Assembly (NCBI RefSeq): GCF_963360655.1
Contig: NZ_OY725712.1
Coordinates: 558,001 to 622,000 of the forward strand
From: Collinsella aerofaciens
GTDB lineage: Bacteria; Actinomycetota; Coriobacteriia; Coriobacteriales; Coriobacteriaceae
Reading direction: 5' to 3'
Length of the DNA stretch: 64,000 nt
Shown here: one piece after another, positions 987 to 43,939 of the stretch
Layout of the letters: each line of letters starts with the position of its first letter
Numbering within the stretch: position 1 is the first letter of the stretch
Notes under the pieces: generated by a model
Told to the model about the DNA's origin: nothing
What the model saw: the letters and a program-made list of their open reading frames with translations, nothing else
Databases searched by the model: none
Made by a program: the position numbers and the translations under genes

Positions 987-1109
987 CTAAGTGAGTAGAC
1001 TTTTTTGCAATAGCCAAGCACAACCCGCATAACGAAAACTAAAACCGCAGGTAGAGCTCTTGCGCAAAAGCCATGTGCTCGCGATATTGCAAAAAGTCTA
1101 CTCACTTAG
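987..1109. repeat. 123-bp palindromic element, copy A
   Basis: Begins CTAAGTGAGTAGAC and ends with its reverse complement. The inverted arms extend about 25 bases in this copy (to GCAATA / TATTGC), with one extra T in the left arm. The interior carries AACCGCAGGTAG near 1047-1058, also present in copies B and C. It lies between the TrmB-like gene and the helicase gene. Confidence 0.85.
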
Positions 1110-1231
1110 CTGGCAACTGCACCAAACGGCTGGGCAGAACGCCCATTTCCTGCATTTTCTCGCGCGCTGGCACCCCGCGCCGCTGCTACGCCATAATAGT
1201 TGGCGGACAAACGGCGAGAGAAAGCAACCAC

Positions 1232-3913
1232 ATGGCACAGACCACGACAGATACTTCCGCCAGCACCGTTTCTGGCGCCGGCGCCGCCAGCTCGTTCTCG
1301 GGCGGCACGGGAACCGAAGCCGAATTCGGCTCGCTCGGCGCGCTCTCCCCCACCTGGTGGGAGCCCGAGGATGGTAGCGAGCCCGAACCATGGCTCACGC
1401 CCGATCAGGCCTTCGAACGCTTCTTTGAATGGACAAGCGACCGCGGTATTGAGCTGTGGGACCACCAGGAAGAGGCCCTCATGGATCTAGCCGCCGGTGA
1501 CCATGTCATTTTGGGAACACCGACCGGATCGGGCAAGTCGCTTGTCGCGCTAGGCATGCTCTTTATGGGCATGGCACAGGGCAAGCGCTGTTATTACACG
1601 GCCCCCATCAAGGCTCTGGTCAGCGAAAAGTTTTTCGACCTTGTGCAGGTGCTCGGCCGCGATAACGTCGGCATGATCACCGGCGACACGCATATCAACA
1701 CCAAGGCGCCCGTCATCTGCTGCACGGCAGAAATCCTTGCCAACGATGCACTGCGCGAGGGCGAGGGCGCCGACGTGGGCTGCGTCGCCATGGACGAGTT
1801 CCACTATTTTGCCGACCCCGACCGCGGCTGGGCCTGGCAGGTGCCACTGCTCACCCTGCCTCACACGCAATTCATGCTCATGAGCGCCACGCTCGGCGAT
1901 GTCACTGCCATCGCCGCCTCACTCGAGGAACACACCGGCGCTACCTGCGACTTGGTCGTCGATGCCCCACGCCCCGTGCCGCTGAGCTACGACTACGTGA
2001 CGACCTCCCTCGAGGGCACCGTCGAGCTCGCGATGCGCGGCGGAGAGGCCCCGCTCTATATCGTGCACTTTAGCCAGGATGCCGCCCTTGCGACGGCACA
2101 GTCGCTCGCCAACTTTGGCATTGCCAGCAAGGAGCAGCGCGAGGCCATCAAGGAGGCGGCCAAGGGCACGAGCTTCTCGACGGCCTTCGGCAAGATCCTC
2201 AAGCGTTTGCTTGGCTGCGGCGTCGGCGTGCACCACGCCGGTATGCTGCCGCGTTATCGTCTGCTGGTCGAGCGTTTGGCGCAGCAGGGCCTGCTGCCCG
2301 TCATCTGCGGCACCGATACGCTCGGCGTCGGCATCAACGTACCCATCCACACCGTGGTGCTCACCGCGCTCACCAAGTTCGACGGCTACAAGATGCGTCG
2401 CCTGCGCGCCCGCGAGTTCCATCAGATTGCCGGTCGCGCCGGCCGCTCGGGCTTCGATACCGAGGGCATGGTCATCGCCGAGGCCCCGGAGCACGAGATC
2501 GAGAACGCCAAACTCATGGCCAAGGCGGGCGACGACCCCAAGAAGCTCCGCAAGATTAAAAAGAAGAAGGCCCCCGAGGGCTTTGTCACCTGGAACAAGC
2601 AGACCTTTGAGCGCCTGATCGAGACGCAGCCCGAGACGCTCAAGCCGCGCCTTCGCATCACGCACTCCATGGTGATTAGCGTGGTCGAGCAGGGCGGCGA
2701 TGCCCGAGCCCGCGTACACGACCTCATCGAAACAAGCCTGCAGACCCCTGAGGAAAAGGCAAAGCTCGAGGTTCGTGCCGACGAGATCTTCGCCACGCTC
2801 ATCGATTCCGGCGTCGTCGTTCGCACCGAGGTGCCGCCCGCGCCCGACGCCCCGACTGACGCCGCGCCAGACATCGACTATGCACTGACGGTCGATCTGC
2901 CCGAGGACTTTGCGCTCGACCAGCCGCTCTCGCCGTTTTTGCTTGCCGCGCTGGAGCTGCTCGACCCCGAGAGTGAGACCTATACCATGGATCTGATCTC
3001 GATGGTCGAGGCAACGCTCGAGGACCCCAAGCAGGTATTGCGCGCGCAGGAGCGCGCCGCGCGCGACCGCGCGATGGCCGAAATGAAGGCTGACGGCGTC
3101 GAATATGAGGAACGCCTGGAGCGCATCCAGGATGTCACCTACGAAAAGCCGCTCGAGGACTTGCTCGATGCCGCCTTCGACAAGTACTGCCAAGAAGTAC
3201 CTTGGGCCAACGACTACCAGCTCTCGCCCAAGAGCGTCCTGCGCGACATGCTGGAGAGCGCGAGCGACTTTAAGGGCTATATCCAAAAGCTCGGCATCGC
3301 CCGCTCCGAGGGCATTTTGCTGCGTTACCTGGCAGAGGCCTACCGTTCACTCGACCGCACCGTGCCCATCGAGAAGCGCGACGAGCGCCTGCGCGACATT
3401 ATCTCGTGGCTGGGCTTTGTGGTGCGCTCGGTGGACTCGAGCCTGGTGGATGAGTGGGAGAACGCCGGCAACCCGGCAGCCCTCGATGCTGCGCCGCCGC
3501 AGGGCATCGACGAGGTCGTGGCGGACCGTCGCGGCTGCACGCTATTGGTGCGCAACGCGCTCTTCCGCCGCGTGACCCTTGCCGCCCGCGAGCACGTTCG
3601 CGACCTGGGCGAGCTCGACGACGACTGGGGCATGAGCGAGATCCGCTGGCAAAAAGCACTCGACGCTTACCACGAGCAGCACGAGGAAATCCTCACCGAC
3701 GGAGATGCCCGCAGCGCCGCGATGTTTTCCATTGACGAGTCCGACGAGAAGACCGCGCACGTATGGCACGTGCACCAGATCTTTGCCGACGAGGATGGCG
3801 ACCACGATTTTGGCATCATGGGCGATGTCGATCTGGACGCCACGCAAGACGGCGGCGAGGTCATCTTCAAAAACTACCGCGTCGGCTTTATCGAGGACCT
3901 GCTCGAGGACTAG
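1232..3913 (+). CDS. Ski2/Mtr4-like DExH-box RNA helicase with C-terminal DUF3516-type region
   Basis: 893 residues from the ATG at 1232, chosen because GAGAGAAAG precedes it and the in-frame sequence upstream reads through the 123-bp repeat. Helicase motifs in order: Walker A GTPTGSGKS (95-103), DEFH motif II (188-191), SAT motif III (218-220), VHHAGMLP, a TDTLGVGINVP motif and QIAGRAGRSGFD motif VI. The last ~400 residues match in outline the DUF3516 region of actinobacterial helicases of this type. Family members unwind structured RNA with ATP; a role in RNA turnover is inferred. It ends in a strong shared terminator, converging with the DUF2130 gene. Confidence 0.88.
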   Translation: MAQTTTDTSASTVSGAGAASSFSGGTGTEAEFGSLGALSPTWWEPEDGSEPEPWLTPDQAFERFFEWTSDRGIELWDHQEEALMDLAAGDHVILGTPTGSGKSLVALGMLFMGMAQGKRCYYTAPIKALVSEKFFDLVQVLGRDNVGMITGDTHINTKAPVICCTAEILANDALREGEGADVGCVAMDEFHYFADPDRGWAWQVPLLTLPHTQFMLMSATLGDVTAIAASLEEHTGATCDLVVDAPRPVPLSYDYVTTSLEGTVELAMRGGEAPLYIVHFSQDAALATAQSLANFGIASKEQREAIKEAAKGTSFSTAFGKILKRLLGCGVGVHHAGMLPRYRLLVERLAQQGLLPVICGTDTLGVGINVPIHTVVLTALTKFDGYKMRRLRAREFHQIAGRAGRSGFDTEGMVIAEAPEHEIENAKLMAKAGDDPKKLRKIKKKKAPEGFVTWNKQTFERLIETQPETLKPRLRITHSMVISVVEQGGDARARVHDLIETSLQTPEEKAKLEVRADEIFATLIDSGVVVRTEVPPAPDAPTDAAPDIDYALTVDLPEDFALDQPLSPFLLAALELLDPESETYTMDLISMVEATLEDPKQVLRAQERAARDRAMAEMKADGVEYEERLERIQDVTYEKPLEDLLDAAFDKYCQEVPWANDYQLSPKSVLRDMLESASDFKGYIQKLGIARSEGILLRYLAEAYRSLDRTVPIEKRDERLRDIISWLGFVVRSVDSSLVDEWENAGNPAALDAAPPQGIDEVVADRRGCTLLVRNALFRRVTLAAREHVRDLGELDDDWGMSEIRWQKALDAYHEQHEEILTDGDARSAAMFSIDESDEKTAHVWHVHQIFADEDGDHDFGIMGDVDLDATQDGGEVIFKNYRVGFIEDLLED

Positions 3914-3937
3914 CCGAACATACTGGAACGAAACGAA

Positions 3938-3976
3938 GCGGGGCCGCTGGCAATATAGCCAGCGGCCCCGCTTTTG
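3938..3976. terminator. Bidirectional terminator between convergent genes
   Basis: Perfect 14-bp stem (3938-3951 with 3958-3971), six-base loop, T-run on the plus strand. It lies between the helicase stop and the stop of the DUF2130 gene. Confidence 0.9.
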
Positions 3977-3992
3977 CGCTATACGCTATGCC

Positions 3993-5750
3993 TTACTCGG
4001 CACCCTCGACCTCATACGAATCCGCCTCGGCTGGCTCATCGTTTGTCTCTGTCGCAGCCCCGCGCGCCTCGTCAAACGCGGCCTTCATGGTCTTGTTGCC
4101 CCACGTGAGCTTGCGAATGGTAAGATCGTCCGCCTTCTTGTTGGCTAGGCGCAGATTGTTCTCGGAGGACAGCAACGCCTCCTTGGTTTTCTGCAGGTGG
4201 CTAATCGTCTTATCGATCTCATCGATCGCCGTTTGGAACTTGCGGCTCGCGATCTCGTAGTTGCGGCCGAAATCATTCTTGAACTTTTCCATCTTGGCTT
4301 CGAAGTTCGTGACGTCGATATTCTGCTGCTTGTACTCCGCCAGCTCCTGCTTATAGCGCAGCGAACCCATGGCGGCGTTGCGCAGCAGCGTGATCATGGG
4401 AATGAAGAACTGCGGGCGGATCACGTACATCTTCTCATAGCGGTAACTCACGTCGACTATCCCTGCGTTATAGAGCTCGCTTTCGGGCTCGAGCAGTGTG
4501 CAGAGCACCGCGTACTCACAGCCTTTCTGGCGACGATCGTGATCGAGTTTCTTAAAGAAGTCCTCGTTTTTGTGCTTGGTCGCGGTCTCGTCGTTCTCGT
4601 TTTTCATCTCGAACATAATCGAAATGACCTCGTTACCGCTTGCGTCGCACTCGCGGAAGATAAAGTCGCCCTTGGTGCCCTCGGACGCATCGTTATCCTT
4701 CTCGAAGTACGCGTTAGGAAACGCCGTCATGCGCAGACGGTTGAACTCGGTCTCGCAGTGCTGCTCGAGCGACTCGCCCACCATCTTGGTGGACAGGCGG
4801 ACCTTCATGTCCTTAAGGCGCTCAATCTCTTCGTCCTTGTAGCGAATCAGGTCATCGCTCGCGCGCTTGGCCTGCGCAAGCTCGAGCTCGTGTGCCGCCT
4901 TGACCTGTTCCTCGCGAGAATCGCGCACCGCCAGCTCGCTCGTCAGTTTGGCACGCGCCTCATCGCGCTCTCGCTCCGCCGCGGCGACCGCCTCTGACAG
5001 GTTCATTTTTGCCATCAGTTCCTGCTCGCGCAGCTGGGCACGCAGGCCCTCGGCCTCTTGCTCGGACTGAGCCTTTGCGGCGGAAAACTTCTCTTGCACC
5101 TTCGCGCGATAGTCAGCAAGCGCGCGCTCGGCCTCGCTGCGAGCGGCATCGAGCTCACGCTGCGACTCTGCCGCGGCAGCGGCAAGCGCCATCTCCTGGG
5201 CCTTGTCCGCCGCGGCAAGCCTGGCCTGCAGCTCGGCAATCTGAGCGTCGCGTGCAGCTAAATCGTTTTGAGCAGCGTTGCGCGCCGCCGACTCGGCAAG
5301 CTTTGCTTCGTCATCTTTGCGCCCAAGCTGCGCACGCAGGCTATCAATCTCACGCTGGAGTTCGGCATTCTCTTTTTGAGCATTGGCTCGTGCCTCAACC
5401 GCCGCGCGCTGGCTTGCACTCTCGCGCTCTGCGGCAGCGCCCTCGAGCTTAGCGCGCAGCTCGGCAAGCTCAGCATCGCGCTTGGCAACCTCTTGCGCCA
5501 GTTTCTGATCCGCAGTGTTCTTCTGCTCGACAAGCTGGGCATTGCGCTGAGACTTTGCCTGTTGCAAGGCAGCCGTCGAACGCGAGCGCTCAAGCTCCAG
5601 CGCCTGCTCACCCTCACGCTGGACTGCCTTCACACGCTCATCCAGGTCGCGCGAGAACTCGGCATCGCGCACCTGCTTGACGATATCCGCATAGCCGGAT
5701 GCATCGACCTTAAAAACTTCGCCGCAATGCGGGCACTTGATCTCGTTCAT
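3993..5750 (-). CDS. DUF2130 domain protein with N-terminal zinc motif and long coiled coil
   Basis: 585 residues. A CPHCGEVF motif (Cys6, Cys9) at the N-terminus suggests metal binding. Residues about 30-320 are almost entirely Ala/Glu/Arg/Gln-rich heptad-like sequence typical of a coiled coil. The C-terminal part, from about residue 330 ([19 protein letters not shown]) through GDFIFRE and [16 protein letters not shown], matches the DUF2130 family, whose biochemical role is not established. The start is set by AGGAG just upstream. It is probably a cytoplasmic, single-gene unit read toward the helicase. Confidence 0.85.
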
Positions 5751-5837
5751 AGCAGCTCCTCGATGGACGCAAATATCAACCGGCTACACTCTACCGCGCC
5801 GCGCGGACAAAAAAGGCGCCGCCGCCATAATGGCAAC

Positions 5838-5890
5838 GGCGCCAGAACCACCACAAAGGTGCCTGTCCCCTTTGTGGTGGCTCTGGCGCC
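5838..5890. repeat. CTGTCC-core hairpin, copy a
   Basis: 22-bp arms (5838-5859, 5869-5890) with one mismatch and loop TGCCTGTCC. It directly abuts the TAG stop (5891-5893) of the phosphoesterase gene, so it may also act as that gene's terminator. It shares its core with hairpins at 43677, 49305, 49960, 51215, 54943 and 59827. Confidence 0.85.
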
Positions 5891-6436
5891 CTATAACCCA
5901 AAGAAGCTAAGAATCTGATCGCGGCTTACGGGCTTGTACTCGTTGGCATCGAGACCGACATCGTAGCGAAAGATAGGGCGCTCGCGATCGCGGTTGCGTG
6001 CGTTGGCGCGGTCACCTCTGCTGTGGATATGCCCATGCAGCATAATGGCGCCACGTGCCTTGCCGTTCCAGCTGAGCATGGGGTAGTGGCTCATAACCAG
6101 ACGATGGCCCTTGGCATAGCCGGGAGCAATCTCCAGGTAATCGCGCACGTCTTCCCAAATCCGCGGTACGTCGGAATCTTCCCAGTCGCCGTCATGGTTA
6201 CCGCGGATGAGCGTCACGTTCTGGCATTCGATACGCTCGCGCAGGCGCACCGCCTCCGCCAGGGGCAAACGATAGGTAAAGTCACCCAGAATATAGAGGC
6301 GGTCGTCCGCAGCCACGCACTCATTGATGGCATCGATGACCTTGCGGTTCATCTCCTCGACCGAGCCAAACGGCCGGTCCATGTCGTGCAAGATATTCGT
6401 ATCGCCCAGGTGCAAGTCGGCGGTAAACCACATCAT
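5891..6436 (-). CDS. Calcineurin-like metallophosphoesterase
   Basis: 181 residues starting at the ATG at 6436; the ATG five codons upstream lacks a ribosome binding site, whereas GAGGA sits eight bases before 6436. Metal-binding motifs appear in the canonical order: DLH (residues 7-9), GD in ILGDFTY, GNHD in RGNHDGDW, then SHYP and HGHIHSRGD near the C-terminus. Family members hydrolyse phosphodi- or monoesters with two metal ions; the substrate here cannot be read from sequence. It is a compact single-domain, cytoplasmic protein. The gene ends against hairpin copy a. Confidence 0.85.
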   Translation of the reverse strand: MMWFTADLHLGDTNILHDMDRPFGSVEEMNRKVIDAINECVAADDRLYILGDFTYRLPLAEAVRLRERIECQNVTLIRGNHDGDWEDSDVPRIWEDVRDYLEIAPGYAKGHRLVMSHYPMLSWNGKARGAIMLHGHIHSRGDRANARNRDRERPIFRYDVGLDANEYKPVSRDQILSFFGL

Positions 6437-6565
6437 CGTCTGTGTCCTCATTTCGCAACGTGTTCAACTCGTGCTAAGTATACAGACGCAGCGATGCGGC
6501 GGTTATCCAAAGAGCCCGCCGAACAGTCCGCGGCGGCGCTTGTCTTGCTTTTTCGAAGCGTCACC

Positions 6566-6682
6566 CTAAGTTTTCTTGTCCCGCCGTTTCTTACGGTCCT
6601 GTTCCAGATCATCGTCGTCGAGCAGCAGATCCCACTCAAACGGATCATCCGTCAAATCGAACAGGTCATCGTCGTCAAACAT
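6566..6682 (-). CDS. Small acidic/basic protein, possibly truncated by an amber codon
   Basis: 38 residues beginning MFDDDDLFDLTDD, with GGAGG four bases before the ATG, directly downstream of the HIRAN gene on the same strand. The N-terminal half is Asp-rich and the end is Lys/Arg-rich (RKKRRDKKT). After the TAG at 6568-6566 the same frame stays open for 20 more codons (GDASKKQDKRR, then GLFGGLFG) to a TAA at 6503. The downstream part looks like a natural tail of the same protein, so either the gene has a nonsense mutation or the amber codon is read through. Function unknown. Confidence 0.6.
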   Translation of the reverse strand: MFDDDDLFDLTDDPFEWDLLLDDDDLEQDRKKRRDKKT

Positions 6683-6700
6683 GGCCGCCTCCATTGCCGA

Positions 6701-7027
6701 CTAGCGGGCATCCACCACATAGAGGCCAACGCGCACCTGGTGCCACGGGCTGCGCTCGGGGGCAACCTGTTGCACGCGGGCCTCAAATACGTCCTCGTGG
6801 CCGTAATACATCATCAAGGACAGCGGGCCGACCTCGTTTCCCGGAACGTAGCCAAGTTTGGTCTTGCCATAGTAGATCGCAACTGCCTCGGGGTCATGGG
6901 GATTATCGCGCTCGGCACACAGCGTCAGCTTATCGCCCGCTTTAAGATCGCCCAGGACCAAGGCGCCATCGGCATACTGAAATCCTGCAATGTGAAATGA
7001 CAGAAGAACACGTGAAGGCTCGTACAT
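6701..7027 (-). CDS. Stand-alone HIRAN-domain protein
   Basis: 108 residues, essentially one HIRAN domain: an AGFQYADG segment, LKAGDKLTLCAERDNPHDPEAV, and KLGYVPGNE. HIRAN domains bind DNA ends or 3' single-strand termini when fused to helicases or nucleases; here the domain is alone. The start is supported by AGGAG. The small acidic gene follows 18 bases downstream, suggesting a two-gene unit. A role in recognising damaged DNA is inference from the family only. Confidence 0.8.
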   Translation of the reverse strand: MYEPSRVLLSFHIAGFQYADGALVLGDLKAGDKLTLCAERDNPHDPEAVAIYYGKTKLGYVPGNEVGPLSLMMYYGHEDVFEARVQQVAPERSPWHQVRVGLYVVDAR

Positions 7028-7263
7028 AGCAGCTCCTCTAACGGCCGGATAAACCGGTGTGTAACCTTATTGAGAAGTCTACGGTCCCGCGCGGACACAA
7101 ATACATCCTGTCTGCGTCCTTCAATCGTTTGCCTCAACGCTTGCGCGACAGAACGCTTGCAGATAAGATAGGAACACGGATGGCACCCGTTGCCGCGGGT
7201 CTTGCCAACTCCGATACACGTTTTCATCGTGAGAAGTGGCCGTCTTCGCTTACGCGGGGGCGG

Positions 7264-7347
7264 CTATTTCATTCGGCCGATAAACAGACCGAGTTCGATA
7301 GCCGCAATCAACAACGCCAATAACGAAATAACATCGCTTACGTTCAT
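7264..7347 (-). CDS. 27-residue hydrophobic peptide
   Basis: The peptide begins MNVSDVISLLALLIAAIELG and ends with GRMK: a short polar start, one transmembrane-length hydrophobic stretch (about residues 6-23) and a basic tail. An AAGGG-type ribosome binding site sits about seven bases before the ATG. The architecture resembles small membrane peptides such as type I toxins or holin-like peptides, but no antisense RNA could be demonstrated by eye. It lies in the otherwise empty interval between the HIRAN gene and the aldehyde dehydrogenase gene. Confidence 0.5.
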   Translation of the reverse strand: MNVSDVISLLALLIAAIELGLFIGRMK

Positions 7348-7410
7348 ACCAAATCCCTTCTAAAGGGAGTTGGCCCATCCGTGCTCCATAACAGTAGTCT
7401 AACGCAAAAT

Positions 7411-7444
7411 GCAGGTAATAGGAACACTTGTTCGTATTACCTGC
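7411..7444 (-). terminator. Terminator of the dehydrogenase operon
   Basis: Sixteen-base arms (7411-7426 with 7429-7444) with one mismatch, just after the aldehyde dehydrogenase stop; on the minus strand it is followed by ATTTTG. Confidence 0.75.
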
Positions 7445-7452
7445 GCCCTTTT

Positions 7453-8832
7453 CTAATGCACAAACATGCGCACGAACTTGTGCTTCCAGCTTGCGTAGGG
7501 CGCATACCGAAACGGCACGTCCAGCCAAGTTGCCTTGTTCACGATGCTCTTCTTGTGGCTAAACGTATCGAAGCTCTCGCGTCCATGGTACTGCCCCATA
7601 CCGCTCGCGCCCATGCCGCCAAAGCCCATATGGCTCGTAGCCAAGTGCATGATCGTGTCGTTGACACAGCCGCCGCCAAAGGGCACGTAGCGCACAAAGC
7701 GTTGCTGAACCGAACGGTCCTGGCTAAAGATATACAGGGCCAGCGGCGTCGGACGATCCGTAATAAACGTCTCGGCCTCGTCTAGGCTCTCAAACGTCAG
7801 CACCGGCAAGATGGGACCGAAGATCTCCTCCTGCATCACGGCGTCATCGGGGGTCACGCCGTCTAGGATCGTCGGCTCAATCTTGAGCGACGACTCGCGC
7901 GCCGTGCCTCCCAGCACGACCTTATCGGGATCGATCAGCCCGCGCACACGCGCAAAATGCTTGGCGTTGACGATATGCCCGTAGTCCTCGTTATCGAGCG
8001 GATGCTCGCCAAACATACGGCGGGCCTCTTCCCTGATGAGGTCCAGCAGCTCGTCGTGCACGCGCGCATCGACCAGCAGGTAGTCGGGCGCCACGCAGGT
8101 CTGCCCCACGTTGAGCCATTTACCAAAGGCGATACGCCGCGCCGCAACCTTCAAGTTTGCCGTCGCATCCACGATGCAGGGGCTCTTGCCGCCCAGCTCA
8201 AGCGTCACGGGCGTGAGGTTTTTACTCGCGCGCTCCATGACGAGCTTGCCGACCGGAACGCTACCGGTAAAGAAGATCTTGTCCCAGCACTCATCGAGCA
8301 ACGCTTCGTTCTCGGCGCGCCCGCCCTCGACAACCGTCACCAGGCGCGGATCAAATGCCTCTTCACAGATTTGCTTGAGCACCGCGCTCGATGCCGGAGC
8401 ATAGGCACTCGGCTTGATGACCACGGTATTGCCCGCGGCAAGGGCGCCGGCGAGCGGCTCGAGTGTTAGCAAAAACGGGTAGTTCCACGGAGCCATGATG
8501 AGCGTGACGCCATAGGGCACGGCTTGCGTTTTGCACGCGCTCACGGCGTTGGCAAGGTCACACGGACGCAGGCGCGGACGACTCCATCGAGCCACGTGAG
8601 CGATCTGATGACGAATCTCGGAAAGCGACGTGCCGATCTCGCACATATATGCCTCGTCATGCGACTTTCCCAAATCGGTCTTGAGTGCATGGGCAATATC
8701 GGCCTCGTGCGCCCGTACCGCATCGCGTAAACTCACGAGCGCGCGACGTCGGGCATCAACATCAAACGTAGCGTGCGTTTTAAAGTAAGTGCGCTGATCG
8801 CCGACGATGCGCGCAATTTCCTCGGTGTTCAT
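7453..8832 (-). CDS. NAD(P)-dependent aldehyde dehydrogenase, class 3 type
   Basis: 459 residues, the short length typical of class 3/fatty or coniferyl aldehyde dehydrogenases. Motifs: PWNYPF cofactor region, the FTGS loop, the general-base glutamate in LELGGKSP, and the catalytic cysteine in GQTCVAPD. It oxidises an aldehyde to the acid; the physiological substrate is unknown. AGGAGGG precedes the start. It lies nine bases downstream of the iron alcohol dehydrogenase gene on the same strand, so the pair could interconvert an alcohol, its aldehyde and the acid. A terminator follows. Confidence 0.88.
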   Translation of the reverse strand: MNTEEIARIVGDQRTYFKTHATFDVDARRRALVSLRDAVRAHEADIAHALKTDLGKSHDEAYMCEIGTSLSEIRHQIAHVARWSRPRLRPCDLANAVSACKTQAVPYGVTLIMAPWNYPFLLTLEPLAGALAAGNTVVIKPSAYAPASSAVLKQICEEAFDPRLVTVVEGGRAENEALLDECWDKIFFTGSVPVGKLVMERASKNLTPVTLELGGKSPCIVDATANLKVAARRIAFGKWLNVGQTCVAPDYLLVDARVHDELLDLIREEARRMFGEHPLDNEDYGHIVNAKHFARVRGLIDPDKVVLGGTARESSLKIEPTILDGVTPDDAVMQEEIFGPILPVLTFESLDEAETFITDRPTPLALYIFSQDRSVQQRFVRYVPFGGGCVNDTIMHLATSHMGFGGMGASGMGQYHGRESFDTFSHKKSIVNKATWLDVPFRYAPYASWKHKFVRMFVH

Positions 8833-8841
8833 GGCACCCTC

Positions 8842-10062
8842 CTAGTTCTCGTCCTCAAACATACCACCCGCGACGACCTCGTACATACGCTCGAGCTCCA
8901 AGCGGTCCATCAAAAGCGGAACGGGGTACAGCGGATTGGCCTCGGCATCGGCATGCGCCGCCATCTCGGGAATGTCGGAGCGGCGAATGCCCGAGACATA
9001 TTTGGGGATTCCCAGGATCTCGTTCATGCGGTCGACCCAATCGAAAAAGGCCTCGGCCGCAAGACTATCCTGCGCGGTAGCCGGCGCAATGCCCGCCATG
9101 CGAGCAAGATCGGCAAGCTTGGGGGCGGCGGCGTCACCATAAGCGCGAAGCATGTGCGGCAGGATGATCGCGTTGGCCAAACCGTGCGGAATTCCGTATC
9201 GGCCGCCCAGACTGTGCGCGATGGCATGCACATATCCGACATAGGAGCGGGTAAACGCAACGCCCGCCTTATACGCCGCCGAAAGCATATTGCGACGAGC
9301 GCGCATGTCGTCACCATGCTCATAGGCCTCGAGCAAATTGTCGTGGATAAGCTGCACCGCCTGTCGCGCCATCTTGCGCGTATAGGGCGTGGTGCTTCGC
9401 CCGATAAAGGCCTCAACGGCATGCGTCAGGGCGTCCATGCCCGTCTGCCCCGTAATGGAAGCGGGCAAGCCGCACGTAAACTCGGGGTCGTGGACTGCAA
9501 AACGCGGGATGAGCACAAAGTCGTTAATGGGGTATTTGTAGTGCGTCTCGTCATCGGTGATAACCGCCGCGAGCGTGACTTCGCTTCCCGTACCGGCGGT
9601 AGTGGGAACCGCAATAAGCAGCGGCAGGAGACGATGAATCCGCAGTAGGCCGCGCATCTTGTTGATGGGCTTGTTTGGCTGCGCAATGCGTGCGCCCACG
9701 CCCTTGGCACAGTCCATGGCCGAGCCACCGCCAAAGCCGATAATGGCCTGGCAGGCGCTCTCTCGATACAGGGACGCCGCTTCTTCCACGTTTGAAACCG
9801 TGGGGTTTGCACGCGTTTCGGCATAGACCGTAACGCCAATCCCCCTGCATGCGAGCGCCGTCTCGAGCGGTGCCGTGAGCCCCAGACGGGCAATGCCGGG
9901 ATCCGTCACGATAAGGACCTTCTGGATCGAGCGCTTTTGAAGCACCGCGGGCACATCCTCGGCATGCTCTAAAATGCGCGGCTCGGTATAGGGCAGGATC
10001 GGCAATGCAATGCGAAAAACCGTCTGATATGTTCGGCACCAGGCACGACGGGCTAGATGCAT
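8842..10062 (-). CDS. Iron-containing alcohol dehydrogenase
   Basis: 406 residues. Cofactor motif GGGSAMDCAKG, then PTTAGTGSE, and the metal-binding region: GMDALTHAVEAF provides Asp and His, and YVHAIAHSLGGRYGIPHG provides two further histidines. Members of this group III family reduce aldehydes or oxidise alcohols with NAD(P) and a divalent metal in the cytoplasm. GAAGGAG lies upstream of the start. It is the first gene of a two-gene operon with the aldehyde dehydrogenase, preceded by a candidate operator at 10081-10096. Confidence 0.88.
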   Translation of the reverse strand: MHLARRAWCRTYQTVFRIALPILPYTEPRILEHAEDVPAVLQKRSIQKVLIVTDPGIARLGLTAPLETALACRGIGVTVYAETRANPTVSNVEEAASLYRESACQAIIGFGGGSAMDCAKGVGARIAQPNKPINKMRGLLRIHRLLPLLIAVPTTAGTGSEVTLAAVITDDETHYKYPINDFVLIPRFAVHDPEFTCGLPASITGQTGMDALTHAVEAFIGRSTTPYTRKMARQAVQLIHDNLLEAYEHGDDMRARRNMLSAAYKAGVAFTRSYVGYVHAIAHSLGGRYGIPHGLANAIILPHMLRAYGDAAAPKLADLARMAGIAPATAQDSLAAEAFFDWVDRMNEILGIPKYVSGIRRSDIPEMAAHADAEANPLYPVPLLMDRLELERMYEVVAGGMFEDEN

Positions 10063-10080
10063 AAAGGAAACTCCTTCATT

Positions 10081-10096
10081 TGTTGATAGGTCAACA
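10081..10096. promoter_or_regulatory. Candidate operator upstream of the alcohol dehydrogenase operon
   Basis: Perfect inverted repeat TGTTGA-TAGG-TCAACA, 18 bases upstream of the alcohol dehydrogenase start. The binding protein is unknown. Confidence 0.45.
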
Positions 10097-10206
10097 TTTG
10101 CTCGCCCGATTGTACTCAGCGGCGGTCAAAGACGGCCTGCCAATCGTTAATCAATCAACATCTTCATATCTCAAAATTGTTTTATTAAAAATCATTCCTA
10201 ATAGGC

Positions 10207-10234
10207 TTCACATTTGGTTGCATTTATGGATAAT
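10207..10234 (+). promoter_or_regulatory. Candidate promoter of the rubrerythrin gene
   Basis: TTCACA at 10207-10212 and GATAAT at 10229-10234 with 16-base spacing, within an AT-rich stretch that contrasts with the surrounding DNA. About 85 bases upstream of the coding start. Confidence 0.45.
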
Positions 10235-10318
10235 AGAACTCGTCAAGACGCACGTCCGGAGAGGGCCCTTACGGGACCGGACGAGCGCACAATCGCCATA
10301 GATCGAAAGGATCGAATC

Positions 10319-10879
10319 ATGAAGTTTGTTTGCCCCGTTTGCGGTTATGTGGAAGAGTTCGACGGCGACCAGCTGCCCGAGGACTTCAAGTGCCCCCAGT
10401 GCGGCGTTCCCGGTTCTCGCTTCCTGAAGCAGGAGGAGGGTCAGCTCGAGTGGGCTGCCGAGCACGTCGTGGGCGTCGCCAAGATGGAGGGCGTCTCCGA
10501 GGACATCGTTGCCGACCTGCGCGCCAACTTTGAGGGCGAGTGCTCCGAGGTCGGTATGTACCTGGCCATGGCGCGCGTCGCTCATCGCGAGGGCTATCCC
10601 GAGATCGGCCTGTACTGGGAGAAGGCTGCCCACGAGGAGGCCGAGCACGCTGCCAAGTTCGCTGAGCTCCTGGGCGAGGTCGTGACCGACTCCACCAAGA
10701 AGAACCTCGAGATGCGCGTTGAGGCCGAGAACGGCGCCACCGCCGGCAAGACCGATCTTGCTAAGCGCGCCAAGGCCGCTGGCCTCGATGCCATCCACGA
10801 CACCGTGCACGAGATGGCTCGCGACGAGGCTCGCCACGGCAAGGCTTTCGCCGGCCTGCTCAAGCGCTACTTCGGCTAA
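10319..10879 (+). CDS. Rubrerythrin with N-terminal rubredoxin domain
   Basis: 186 residues from the ATG at 10319, which has GAAAGGA upstream. Two CxxC knuckles (Cys5/8 and Cys25/28) form an N-terminal rubredoxin-type iron site; residues about 60-186 form a ferritin-like di-iron domain with EEAEH and DEARH motifs. Having rubredoxin first is the reverse of classical rubrerythrin. Family members reduce hydrogen peroxide in anaerobes using electrons passed through the rubredoxin site. It is a monocistronic unit with its own promoter region and terminator, consistent with an inducible oxidative-stress gene; regulation is inferred. Confidence 0.93.
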
Positions 10880-10913
10880 GCCAGCAACCTGAGACATAAC
10901 CTCTAGCTCGATG

Positions 10914-10943
10914 AGGCCCGGACCGCATGGTTCGGGCCTTTTT
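10914..10943 (+). terminator. Rubrerythrin terminator
   Basis: Eleven-base stem (10914-10924 with 10929-10939, one G-T pair), loop GCAT, followed by a T-run. Confidence 0.88.
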
Positions 10944-11009
10944 CGTGCCTCACAAACTTGTTAACTACCTGAAATAGGACCGCCTTCGGCATCGGCTTCT
11001 CGTCAAAAA

Positions 11010-11132
11010 CTAAGTGAGTAGACTTTTTGGAACTTGCCGAGCAGACCATCCATATCACTTTATAAAGCCGCAGGTAAATGCCTTGTTGCAAAACGACCTA
11101 GTCGCCAAAGTGCCAAAAGTCTACTCACTTAG
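11010..11132. repeat. 123-bp palindromic element, copy B
   Basis: Same CTAAGTGAGTAGAC ends and same 123-bp length as copies A and C, in the same orientation, with interior GCCGCAGGTA and GTCGCCAAAGTGC. Its right end overlaps the 3' end of the nuclease-like gene: the last residues (LSE) and the TAG stop are encoded by the repeat terminus. Confidence 0.88.
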
Positions 11133-12248
11133 ATTCGCAGCCGTCCACGATCGAGCCATTTTGTGTCTAGCGGGCATCTTTCCGTCGATTACTCCCAATT
11201 TTGTCCAGTCAACGAATAGTTCAGACCTGAGTAATGTCTCAGCCCTTTGCTCATCTGAGCTTTTATCACGATATTCAGCATCGAGCATCCTGCATATGGC
11301 CTTAACGATCGCGCGGAATCTATCCTCATCCGATATCTGTCTGTGTGTAAGGAGAAGCACATCGTAGCCCATGGCCTGAAGGGCCGTCATGCGGTCAGCG
11401 TCACGCAAGCCATCCCCTGCGCGTCCGTGCGAGGCCTTTCCCTGACATTCAATGGCCACCTGTCGCCTACCGTCCGGCGAAGAAAGAAGTAGGTCGATAT
11501 ATACACGGGACTTTCCCACAATCGCTCGAGCACTTGTGCTTAACGTCACTTCGACATTGAGCTCTATGCCGCAAAACCCTTCGCCTCCCAGGGCTCGCGG
11601 CAGTCCAAGCAACAAAAACGCCTCGACCTCAAAAGGCGACGCGGCACCCAATGGAACGAGTTGCGATACCGCCATAAATCTATTGCCGTAACGCATCCCG
11701 CAAACATCTGAACAAAAACGGTCAAGGTCTCCGCCCAAAACCAAAGCGTCTCGACGCCATAAATTTGAGGCGATGCCGTCCTCGGACGGGCAGCGCACCC
11801 AACCGAACGTTGTCGAAATCGCGCCCGAATCAATTGCACGCGAAAGATCCGCCTCAAGTGCCGCCGGCAGGGCACACACCGCAAACAAGCCACACATCTC
11901 CGCCAATACCAAAAGAAGCTGAAGATCCGTCAGATGCCGCGACATGATGAATGTCGTCAGTAGAGGAGATGTAACCAAAAACCCATGCTCCGTTTCCAGC
12001 ACGGATTCCCTGGGGAGCTCACCAAGAAACAGCCGCTGCCTGATACTGGCAGGACAAGTCCGCTTGTTTCTCGTCCGGACCAATGTATACAACGGAAAGC
12101 CGAGCACAACCGCAGCCGTCGGGTTACGGGCAAGGTCATATCGCTGCCGGTCTTCTTCCGGCCGTGGAAGCGGCGGACACAAAGCGCGGACTTGAGGAGG
12201 CAAACGCCAGTACCTAAAAGCCGATATGTCACAAAGTAGATCCTTCAT
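11121..12248 (-). CDS. Orphan protein with PD-(D/E)XK-like nuclease motif
   Basis: 375 residues from the ATG at 12248; no clear ribosome binding site is seen, and a GTG two codons upstream is the alternative. I do not recognise the full-length family. Near residues 250-300 a pattern resembles PD-(D/E)XK endonucleases: D252 in YIDLLL, E267-x-Q269 in VAIECQGK, then a helix and VLLLTHRQI strand. The N-terminal part (AFRYWRLPPQV onward) could be a DNA-binding or specificity region. Base composition looks lower in GC than its neighbours. The gene is bracketed by 123-bp elements B and C, and B supplies its stop codon. A host-defence or mobile-element nuclease role is only a hypothesis. Confidence 0.55.
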   Translation of the reverse strand: MKDLLCDISAFRYWRLPPQVRALCPPLPRPEEDRQRYDLARNPTAAVVLGFPLYTLVRTRNKRTCPASIRQRLFLGELPRESVLETEHGFLVTSPLLTTFIMSRHLTDLQLLLVLAEMCGLFAVCALPAALEADLSRAIDSGAISTTFGWVRCPSEDGIASNLWRRDALVLGGDLDRFCSDVCGMRYGNRFMAVSQLVPLGAASPFEVEAFLLLGLPRALGGEGFCGIELNVEVTLSTSARAIVGKSRVYIDLLLSSPDGRRQVAIECQGKASHGRAGDGLRDADRMTALQAMGYDVLLLTHRQISDEDRFRAIVKAICRMLDAEYRDKSSDEQRAETLLRSELFVDWTKLGVIDGKMPARHKMARSWTAANLSE

Positions 12249-12331
12249 AGGCACAGGAAAACACGAATTTCAACCCAGTCAGTCACGTATTGGCGCGAAC
12301 GCACCAAAAATGGCGCCGAACGGACTGCCAA

Positions 12332-12397
12332 GTTTTCAACAGCACTCCCCAACTGGCCAAAAGCTTGCCGAGAGCTGGACGAAGCCCTGTTGAAAAC
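12332..12397. repeat. Inverted repeat upstream of the nuclease-like gene
   Basis: GTTTTCAACAG at 12332-12342 and its exact reverse complement at 12387-12397, each flanked by related CAAAAATGG / CCATTTTTT sequence further out. It lies in the 180-base gap between the nuclease-like gene start and element C. No gene is seen in this gap. Confidence 0.55.
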
Positions 12398-12428
12398 CCC
12401 ATTTTTTCTCATGCAGGAGCTTTGCGCG

Positions 12429-12551
12429 GCAAGTGAGTAGACTTTTTTGAACATCCCGAGCAGGCCGGTCATCCTGCTTTTCAAAACCGCAGGTAGATAG
12501 CTTGTTACAAAACTGCCTGGTCGCCAAAGTGCTAAAAGTCTACTCACTTAG
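12429..12551. repeat. 123-bp palindromic element, copy C
   Basis: Same length and orientation as copies A and B; the left terminus starts AAGTGAGTAGAC at 12431 after two divergent bases, and the right terminus ends CTACTCACTTAG at 12551. The interior ACCGCAGGTAG and GGTCGCCAAAGTGC closely match copy B. The TAA stop of the pdxR-like gene lies in its right end. Confidence 0.88.
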
Positions 12552-13981
12552 GTTGCAGAGTGCCCCCCCATTAGCTGCAATTCCAAGCTAGTTAGCACTT
12601 TTGGACTCAGATCGTCATACTGAACAAGAATTTGAGTTGAGTTTTCAGGGACAGATGCGCCATCGGCACACCAAAAACAGTCACCAATATCGATAAAAGG
12701 GATGCTCGAGCGCGTGAGGGCCCGTGCAAAAGTGCTTCCGCCCGTTCCACGCTCCGCAACCACGATACAGTAAAGGCCCGCGTCTGCATGCTCGATCGAG
12801 ACTTCCCCTGCCGGAAACGCCTTCCGCACAAGCGCCGCCAGGCCATCGCGCGCCTCGCGAGCGCGCACGCGCACGCGGTTCACATGTCGCTCGTAATCAC
12901 CCGATTCCAGCAAACGAGCCAAAGCGACCTGGTCAACAGAGCTAACCGACGAGGCGTAAAAACCAAGGTTGCGCCTAAACCGCTCCATTAGCTCATCGGG
13001 CAACACCATGTACGCTAGACGCAACGCCGATGACAGGCTCTTCGAAAACGTGTTGGTGTAAATAACCGACTGGGCGGCATCGATCGATGCGAGCGCAGGA
13101 ATCGGCTTGCCAGCAAGGCGAAACTCACAATCAAAGTCATCTTCGATGAGATACCGACCTGGTCGCTCGGCGGCCCAGCTCAGAAGCGCATAGCGACGCG
13201 CAATGCTCGTCACAAGGCCGGTCGGATACTGATGGGACGGCATCAGGTGAAGGACATCGGTCCCGCTTTTCTGCAGAGTGCTCAAGTCCACGCCCTCATC
13301 ATCCAACGGGATATGTCGAACTTGGCAGCCCATAGCCTGATAGATACGCGTCAGACGCAAATAGCCCGGATCCTCAACCGCATACACCTTGTCCGCGCCA
13401 AGCAACTGAACCAACATGGTATCGAGCAGCTGGGCGCCCGCACCGATAACGATGTTGTTGGGGTCGACATTCATACCCCTTGTCCCGTGCAGATGGTGAG
13501 CAATTGCGCGTCGCAGCCGAGCAGTGCCCTGCGCCGGTGCGGGCGAAAAGATTTCGCGCTCGTCTTCGGATGCCAGCGTCGCCCGTAGCGCGCTTTGCCA
13601 AAGCCGCGCCGCCTCCAAAGCAGAAGGAGAAAGCGCATCGAATCGCTCGACCTGTCCGTTGACATCATGCACGCTGGGGCCCACAGAGACGGCATCTCGG
13701 TCGATGCCCTCCGCAGCCGAAGCCAAAACCGGTGCATCCGGAAGCTCGCAAGCGTAGTAGCCACGACGTGGTATTGAGCAAATATAGCCCTCAGCGAGTA
13801 ACTGGCTATATGCATTCTCGATGGTAATAACACTGATTCCCAGATGACTGGCAAAGGCGCGCTTAGACGGCAAATGCTCCCCCGCCACAATGCGTCCAGC
13901 TACGATATCATCTCGAATTTGCTGGTAAACATACTCATAGAGCGATGCTTCGCCGCGTTTTTCCAAATTGTAGTCAAGCAT
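12548..13981 (-). CDS. pdxR: PdxR-type MocR regulator (GntR DNA-binding domain fused to aminotransferase-like domain)
   Basis: 477 residues from the ATG at 13981, chosen because AGGTGA precedes it and MLDYNLEKRGEASLYEYV is the usual family opening; an ATG 11 codons upstream lacks a binding site. Residues about 10-75 form a winged helix (LPSKRAFASHLGISVITIENAY); the remainder is a fold-type I PLP domain with the lysine in NTFSKSLSS. MocR/PdxR proteins sense PLP and activate vitamin B6 synthesis. It is divergent from pdxS with direct repeats between them, which supports that role. Its stop codon is inside repeat copy C. Confidence 0.88.
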   Translation of the reverse strand: MLDYNLEKRGEASLYEYVYQQIRDDIVAGRIVAGEHLPSKRAFASHLGISVITIENAYSQLLAEGYICSIPRRGYYACELPDAPVLASAAEGIDRDAVSVGPSVHDVNGQVERFDALSPSALEAARLWQSALRATLASEDEREIFSPAPAQGTARLRRAIAHHLHGTRGMNVDPNNIVIGAGAQLLDTMLVQLLGADKVYAVEDPGYLRLTRIYQAMGCQVRHIPLDDEGVDLSTLQKSGTDVLHLMPSHQYPTGLVTSIARRYALLSWAAERPGRYLIEDDFDCEFRLAGKPIPALASIDAAQSVIYTNTFSKSLSSALRLAYMVLPDELMERFRRNLGFYASSVSSVDQVALARLLESGDYERHVNRVRVRAREARDGLAALVRKAFPAGEVSIEHADAGLYCIVVAERGTGGSTFARALTRSSIPFIDIGDCFWCADGASVPENSTQILVQYDDLSPKVLTSLELQLMGGHSAT

Positions 13982-13992
13982 GAGCCTATCAC

Positions 13993-14034
13993 CTGACCTT
14001 ATTAAGTCATTCAATCTGGTATTAGTCTGACCTT
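13993..14034. promoter_or_regulatory. Candidate PdxR binding site: direct repeats CTGACCTT
   Basis: CTGACCTT occurs at 13993-14000 and again at 14027-14034, same orientation, 34 bases apart, in the pdxR-pdxS divergent interval. Paired direct repeats are typical of MocR operators. Confidence 0.6.
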
Positions 14035-15760: not shown

Positions 15761-16344
15761 CTACTCCCGGTAGGGCACCCGGTCGCGCATCACGGCGTAT
15801 ATCGCCCTGAGCCGCTTCCTCGCGACGGCCTTGAGCGCCCGCCCGTGCCCCATGCCCCGCGCCCTGCAGGCCCGGTAGTACTCGCCGTAGCGCCCCGAGG
15901 ACCTCACCGACGTTCCGGAGCTCCTCACCCTCGGGGCTATGCCGCAGTACGAGGCCAGGTGGTCGTGGTCCGGGAACCTCCCGATGTCGACCGACACCGC
16001 GAGCTGCGCCGCGGTCCTCGGGCCGATGCCGGGCACGGTGAGCAGGCACGCGTAGGTCTCGTCGCCCTCGAGCAGCGCCGCCGTCTCGGCCTCGAGGGCC
16101 CCGGCCTCGTCGAGGGCCTCCGATATCCGGGCGGCCAGGAACCTGACCTGCCTGTTCTCGGCCTCGATGAGCGCCGGCGGGGGCGCAGTCGAGGCGGCCG
16201 CGGCCTCCCCGGCGGCCTCGGCCTGCGGCCCCTCGGCCCCCGAGCGGGCGATCCCCCACGCCCCGCCGAACCCGGCGAGCAGCTCCAGCCACCGGCGGTC
16301 CGACAGGTCGACGGCGGCCTCGAGGGCCGGGCAGGACTCGAGCA
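15761..16344 (-). pseudogene. IS110 transposase, C-terminal half
   Basis: Carries the Transposase_20-type segment LLTVPGIGPRTAAQLAVSV and the following GRFPDHDHLASYCGIAP, the part that holds the serine active site in IS110 recombinases. It starts at the junction with the IS21-type element; the first five bases (TGCTC read on the minus strand) are the target duplication. It is separated from its N-terminal half by 4.55 kb and cannot make a whole protein as it stands. Confidence 0.9.
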
Positions 16345-16493
16345 TGTTAGCGCTAATCTAAAATTGACCACTTTCGCAAACGCATCTCGCCGAATGCGCT
16401 AACGCGCTTTCGCCGACCCCGCTAACGTACTTTCACCAACTGCGCTAACGGAACTATGCTCCGATCGGGTATCCGACCCGGGAGGAGCGGGAT

Positions 16494-43778: not shown

Positions 43779-43805
43779 GCGCTAGTATAGGGAACAACAG
43801 ATTCG

Positions 43806-43939
43806 ATGCGGGAGTGCCGGCGGTGCAAACCACAAGGCTGAGAGGGCAATGGGCCCAATCCTTTGAACCTGTCAGTTAATGCTGGCGTAGGGAGCATGCC
43901 GCCTTTACAGGGGCGCTGTCTATGCACAGCGCCCCTTTT
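43806..43939 (+). promoter_or_regulatory. TPP riboswitch with terminator, upstream of thiM
   Basis: Conserved THI-element blocks in order: GCGGGAGTGC, GGCTGAGAGGG, TTTGAACCTGTCAG (usual CTTGAACCTGAT) and AATGCTGGCGTAGGGA. A ten-base terminator stem GGGGCGCTGT (43910-43919 with 43926-43935) plus TTTT follows, so control is by termination when thiamine pyrophosphate is bound. Confidence 0.95.

Follow-up and report, generated by a model that had tools for sequence, protein, structure and literature searches.

The question raised by this locus is what kind of element is represented by three short palindromes of equal length. They are found in a 64,000-nt stretch of the Collinsella aerofaciens genome (contig NZ_OY725712.1, positions 558,001–622,000), here termed the window. 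An earlier note, made from the sequence alone, had placed copies at positions 987–1109, 11010–11132 and 12429–12551 (here elements A, B and C, all on the + strand) and had described them as exactly 123 bp in length and in one orientation; all of this was confirmed. The 16-mer AAGTGAGTAGACTTTT, with up to three mismatches allowed, is found six times in the window, vs. 0.09 times expected from shuffled sequences, and the six form three inverted pairs, each spanning 119 bp between its outer ends. The inverted arms are 16–18 bp long and the interior is oriented. The inverted ends reported before are present, but the sequence given for them is wrong for the third copy: element C starts with GC and not CT, which leaves AAGTGAGTAG as the arm's invariant part. 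The reported shared interior was kept and corrected to two inverted boxes of the CGAGCAC type and an oriented core, TAAAACCGCAGGTAGA.

In element A the left arm (CTAAGTGAGTAGACTTTT) is at positions 987–1004 (+) and the inverted right arm at 1092–1109 (−), as seen from the inverted 16-mer pairs and the constancy of the arms. The left inner box, of the CGAGCAC type, is at 1015–1021 (+) and the inverted right box at 1075–1081 (−); both are defined by alignments and by slow divergence. The core, AAAACCGCAGGTAGA, is at 1041–1055 (+). Element B has its arms at 11010–11027 and 11115–11132 and its core at 11064–11078, and element C has arms at 12429–12446 and 12534–12551 and a core at 12483–12497. The three copies have only the element in common and their flanks are unrelated, which rules out parts of one segmental duplication.

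Two genes in the window, both on the − strand, are supplied with their stop codons by element ends. The gene between B and C (positions 11121–12254), with a REase_MTES_1575-like match that is below the curated cut-off, has its stop codon within the right arm of B. A gene for a GntR/aminotransferase (MocR-type) regulator (positions 12548–14014) has its TAA stop within the right arm of C. As read from the sequence, CTAAGTGAGTAG has a stop in all three frames.

The window elements belong to a family termed F1. A whole-genome scan shows six pairs in the genome that includes the window, with an identical distance in all. A strict pattern, in which 12 bp of both arms are exact and a gap of 80–110 bp is allowed, finds 1–5 copies in 22 of 43 Collinsella genomes and none in the 22 genomes scanned from other genera of the family. 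A scan across named genomes yielded at least 80 stretches, all of them Collinsella among the matches listed. Thus the copies have further relatives, both in the same genome and in related ones. The copy length is 122–124 bp, nearly always 123, although the pattern permitted other lengths. The copies occupy a small set of orthologous loci and the orientation is constant at each; an inversion of the interior was therefore rejected. Among 90 distinct elements, with 180 arms in all, arm positions 3–12 display a single change. At arm position 13, A>G is seen 9 times on the left and 18 times on the right arm in the same elements, as expected for a motif that is read alike on both arms. One Collinsella locus (L039) has two F1 elements 3 kb apart (positions 3344–3466 and 6375–6497) with a common flank of 48 bp, and 16 bp, beyond the element; a shared flank of this kind is unlike all other pairs compared.

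Judged by the alignments and model matches that follow, the window elements are one branch of a larger Coriobacteriales superfamily of short non-coding DNA elements. Several families, very unlike one another in their arms, share the core AAAACCGCAGGTAGA, and there are at least 20 elements in the genome of the window. The central motif AAACCGCAGGT is present 22 times in this genome, vs. 0 for the reversed control. Beyond F1, the core is found at about 16 more places, most within palindromes with other arms: F2 (CCATCTACTACGTTTAA), F4 (TTTCGGAAGTATGCGGCAAA) and F3 (CAAAACTATGCCGG, with either of two inner modules after it). In a few cases the central motif stands alone, without arms. The F2 arms show one exact spacing of 128 bp. 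Twenty elements of the genome align without gaps from arm to core across families, and the only length difference that is common among them stems from a block of 10 bp, located in F2 and F3 between the core and the right box.

A covariance model, R1, was constructed from 13 F2/F3 elements and contains no F1 sequence. In the window it matches exactly elements A, B and C (E-value = 1.4e-9, 2.1e-4 and 5.2e-8, respectively). Across the order, matches are found in 64 of 297 genomes and in 13 of 107 genera (a count of 11 matches listed for a genome is to be read as at least 11). In 21 of the positive genomes that were examined, most elements have long, nearly perfect arms. These are common to the copies within a genome and mostly different between genomes, and the core and boxes are kept. 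The general build is a large dyad with lineage-specific arms of about 15–45 bp and, at the axis or close to it, the oriented core AAAACCGCAGGTAGA; the inner boxes are of the types CGAGTAGAC, CGAGCAC or CGACCAC. A search of an open-access literature library found no description of the element or of the superfamily.

At seven orthologous loci the mean pairwise divergence is 0.03 in the arms, 0.06 in the core and 0.055–0.07 in the boxes. It is 0.10–0.17 in the rest of the element and, compared without gaps, 0.14–0.18 in the adjoining 20 bp; aligned 60-bp flanks diverge by 0.07–0.38 depending on the locus. Arms, boxes and core thus change about 2–5 times slower than interior and flanks. Gene conversion between copies would be an unlikely cause, since the interiors are locus-specific. 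At the level of sequence comparison the slower change shows constraint, and it points to no particular function.

The geometry is also regular. Of 103 elements, 83 have their symmetry axis 7–8.5 bp from the start of the core, at the center of ACC-GCA-GGT, itself an inverted repeat. In 19 of the 103 it is at 12.5–13 bp, i.e. 5 bp off, and these elements have one extra helical turn; the second axis position results from an extra 10–11 bp on one side. In arrays in two genomes (G101 and G290) and in one element of a third (G084), there are 102 bp between model ends vs. about 123, about two turns shorter. These length steps appear to fit a helical phasing, as judged from few classes and with arm ends uncertain by a few bases.

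The explanation that we lean towards is that the elements are formerly mobile DNA of a MITE- or REPIN-like type which now, constrained in place, serves as putative protein-binding sites. They would have spread as non-autonomous mobile DNA driven by a putative trans-acting protein. In present copies, a putative multimeric protein complex would contact arms, boxes and core in their double-stranded form, and its spacing would be set by the helical turn. The F1 copies may be kept in place because the bound complex acts at the locus, for example by insulating or organizing the 3′ ends of genes. A shared center and geometry with ends that vary by lineage suggests that putative DNA-binding proteins recognize the elements. 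The part on mobility and the part on function in place rest on different evidence, as selection for transposition would not keep a sequence unchanged at one locus.

A further proposal is offered tentatively. The elements may be widespread Coriobacteriales sites in which a conserved core on the axis and boxes in helical phase come together with arms specific to the lineage, the arms coevolving with a putative fast-changing DNA-binding protein and the whole forming an intergenic nucleoprotein complex. The usual conservation pattern of extragenic palindromes is reversed here in common gut bacteria, with a fixed center and variable ends. This opens three points to test: the identity of the protein that recognizes the ends, the way in which the two arms come to change together, and whether the repeats have a function in place.

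A mobile repeat of the MITE or REP type had been suggested in the earlier note. In form this holds: the elements are short, non-coding and extragenic, with terminal inverted repeats, dispersed copies at many loci and lineage-specific families. It is a further step to regard them as plain MITEs, i.e. relics of insertion by a transposase for which the arms serve as terminal inverted repeats, and functionless for the host, and we consider this step unproven and rather unlikely. The size, the terminal inverted repeats and the extragenic position agree with it, as do the several families per genome and the presence/absence differences between genomes. MITEs such as ERIC and the Correia elements (PMC10969869) share the size class, the palindromic form and the intergenic copies. 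There, however, the ends usually define the family; here the center is common and the ends vary, contrary to the usual pattern. The slower change of arms, boxes and core than of interior and flanks at orthologous loci also speaks against plain MITEs.

Sites without the element exist, but none is clean. Locus A is without the element in two genomes (G031 and G033), where extra flank is gone too. The gene at 11121–12254 is missing together with elements B and C in four (G031, G033, G002 and G006), and extra flank is missing on both sides. Other empty sites differ by loss between 39-bp direct repeats. No target duplication was found at the empty sites compared, and a TA duplication at the C-TA/TA-G ends was rejected, as several copies are without TA. 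A mobilizing gene or autonomous parent element was not found among the matches listed. That neither a target duplication nor a parent was found within this scope counts against plain MITEs and may set the elements apart from the described ones; the lack of a clean empty site and of a parent or mobilizing gene counts likewise against the mobile origin in the explanation that we lean towards. No phage or plasmid relatives were found. Short-pattern matches in six viral contigs were attributed to chance (no partner arm and no model match), and a scan of viral contigs with the neighboring regulator gave nothing of use. Families were amplified separately in different genomes, and the elements occur in clusters, e.g. 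three within about 650 bp. Several F2 elements have direct copies of another repeat, of the CCAAAATGATCCGTTTTCCTC type, in their flanks (L179, L182 and L242). At one locus (L223, positions 2010–3473) an IS256-family (Mutator) transposase gene is beside an F3-type element that is seemingly truncated just past the core.

A structured RNA, either a small RNA or a 3′-UTR element on the strand reading AAAACCGCAGGTAGA, was also among the earlier suggestions. The predicted folds are very stable (for the window elements, single-strand folds are 3.9–7.7 standard deviations below shuffles), and a CCGCAGG/CTTGCGG hairpin is possible in most F2/F3 copies (81% of cells paired). In 12 of 17 pairs of F2/F3 arms, both sides have changed; this is no proof of RNA, because inverted protein sites predict the same covariation. 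Among 84 diverse elements, mismatches in the arms are G.T in 26 and A.C in 30 cases, and in the boxes 26 and 21. As the two are about equal, there is no sign of wobble pairing on one strand and an RNA is unsupported. A conserved core hairpin was rejected since it shows no covariation, the F1 arms are constant instead of displaying compensatory changes, and no described Rfam family matches the elements. The RNA suggestion is considered improbable.

Least probable is that the elements are REPINs, or GTAG-tagged REP dimers inside a palindrome, mobilized by a RAYT (Y1 tyrosine) transposase. As in REPINs, which are REP doublets forming hairpins (PMC3116915), invariant 16-mers are inverted at a fixed distance, and the copies are extragenic, clustered and of several groups per genome. 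GTAG is found in 49 of 84 left boxes and Y1_Tnp genes in 37 of 43 Collinsella genomes. Some GTAG dimers are described as set inside a palindrome; in Anabaena variabilis GTAG-15, inverted GTAG motifs are also within a longer palindrome, which is not found without them (PMC3733652). Association with RAYT was nevertheless rejected: in 20 RAYT-type loci, about 5 kb read at each, one element only was found, 2.3 kb from the gene, and several of these genes are adjoined by other palindromes. One genome (G016) has at least 11 matches to R1, yet no Y1_Tnp match. A GTAG-tagged stem-loop in each half was likewise rejected, as no stem-loop was found next to GTAG (mean z 0.12 and −0.23). Unlike REPINs, the elements have additional inner boxes and a conserved core that sits in a fixed orientation on the axis, with arms that vary by lineage and no adjacent RAYT gene; unlike GTAG dimers, their core and geometry are common across genera. 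The Coriobacteriales genera looked for are absent from the main text of PMC3733652. RAYT-type genes at four loci (L388, L389, L392 and L406) have palindromes of their own beside them, and a GGGGAC motif in some resembles terminal inverted repeats in that paper.

The core doubles as an insertion site for an IS110-family element, and some gene segments with pairs of elements around them are found in certain genomes and missing from others. In four cases an IS110-family element splits the core at one position, ACCTGC|GGTTTT, which in element A corresponds to the junction between 1046 and 1047. Three cases are at locus A (G017, G010 and G004) and one is at locus E (G004). The inserted gene shows a Transposase_20 match just under the cut-off and is partly masked. 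Among the matches listed, F1 arms with a longer spacing were noticed once, at 1.42 kb, and this pair is explained by an IS110-family insertion. The IS110 ends were compared with the core for a bridge-RNA guide; there are two 6-base matches, which are not decisive. REPs are known targets of the IS110-family elements IS621, ISPpu9 and ISPpu10, with insertion at one exact position of the palindrome (PMC11208160, PMC1525189). The insertion point is similarly exact here, but it falls within the conserved core of an element that is larger and of another kind. Positions 15761–16345 of the window (− strand) also cover part of a gene for an IS110-type transposase, beside DNA that on reading resembles an IS21-type element.

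A gene for about 2,100 residues is between elements in two genomes, G007 and G025 (L419, positions 2146–8448; L420, positions 1815–8141), and G002 has the same spacing. In the genome of the window this segment is missing and fewer elements are left; the segment was likely lost by recombination between direct copies. Elsewhere in the window, positions 43800–43910 (+) display a TPP riboswitch, just above the gathering score.
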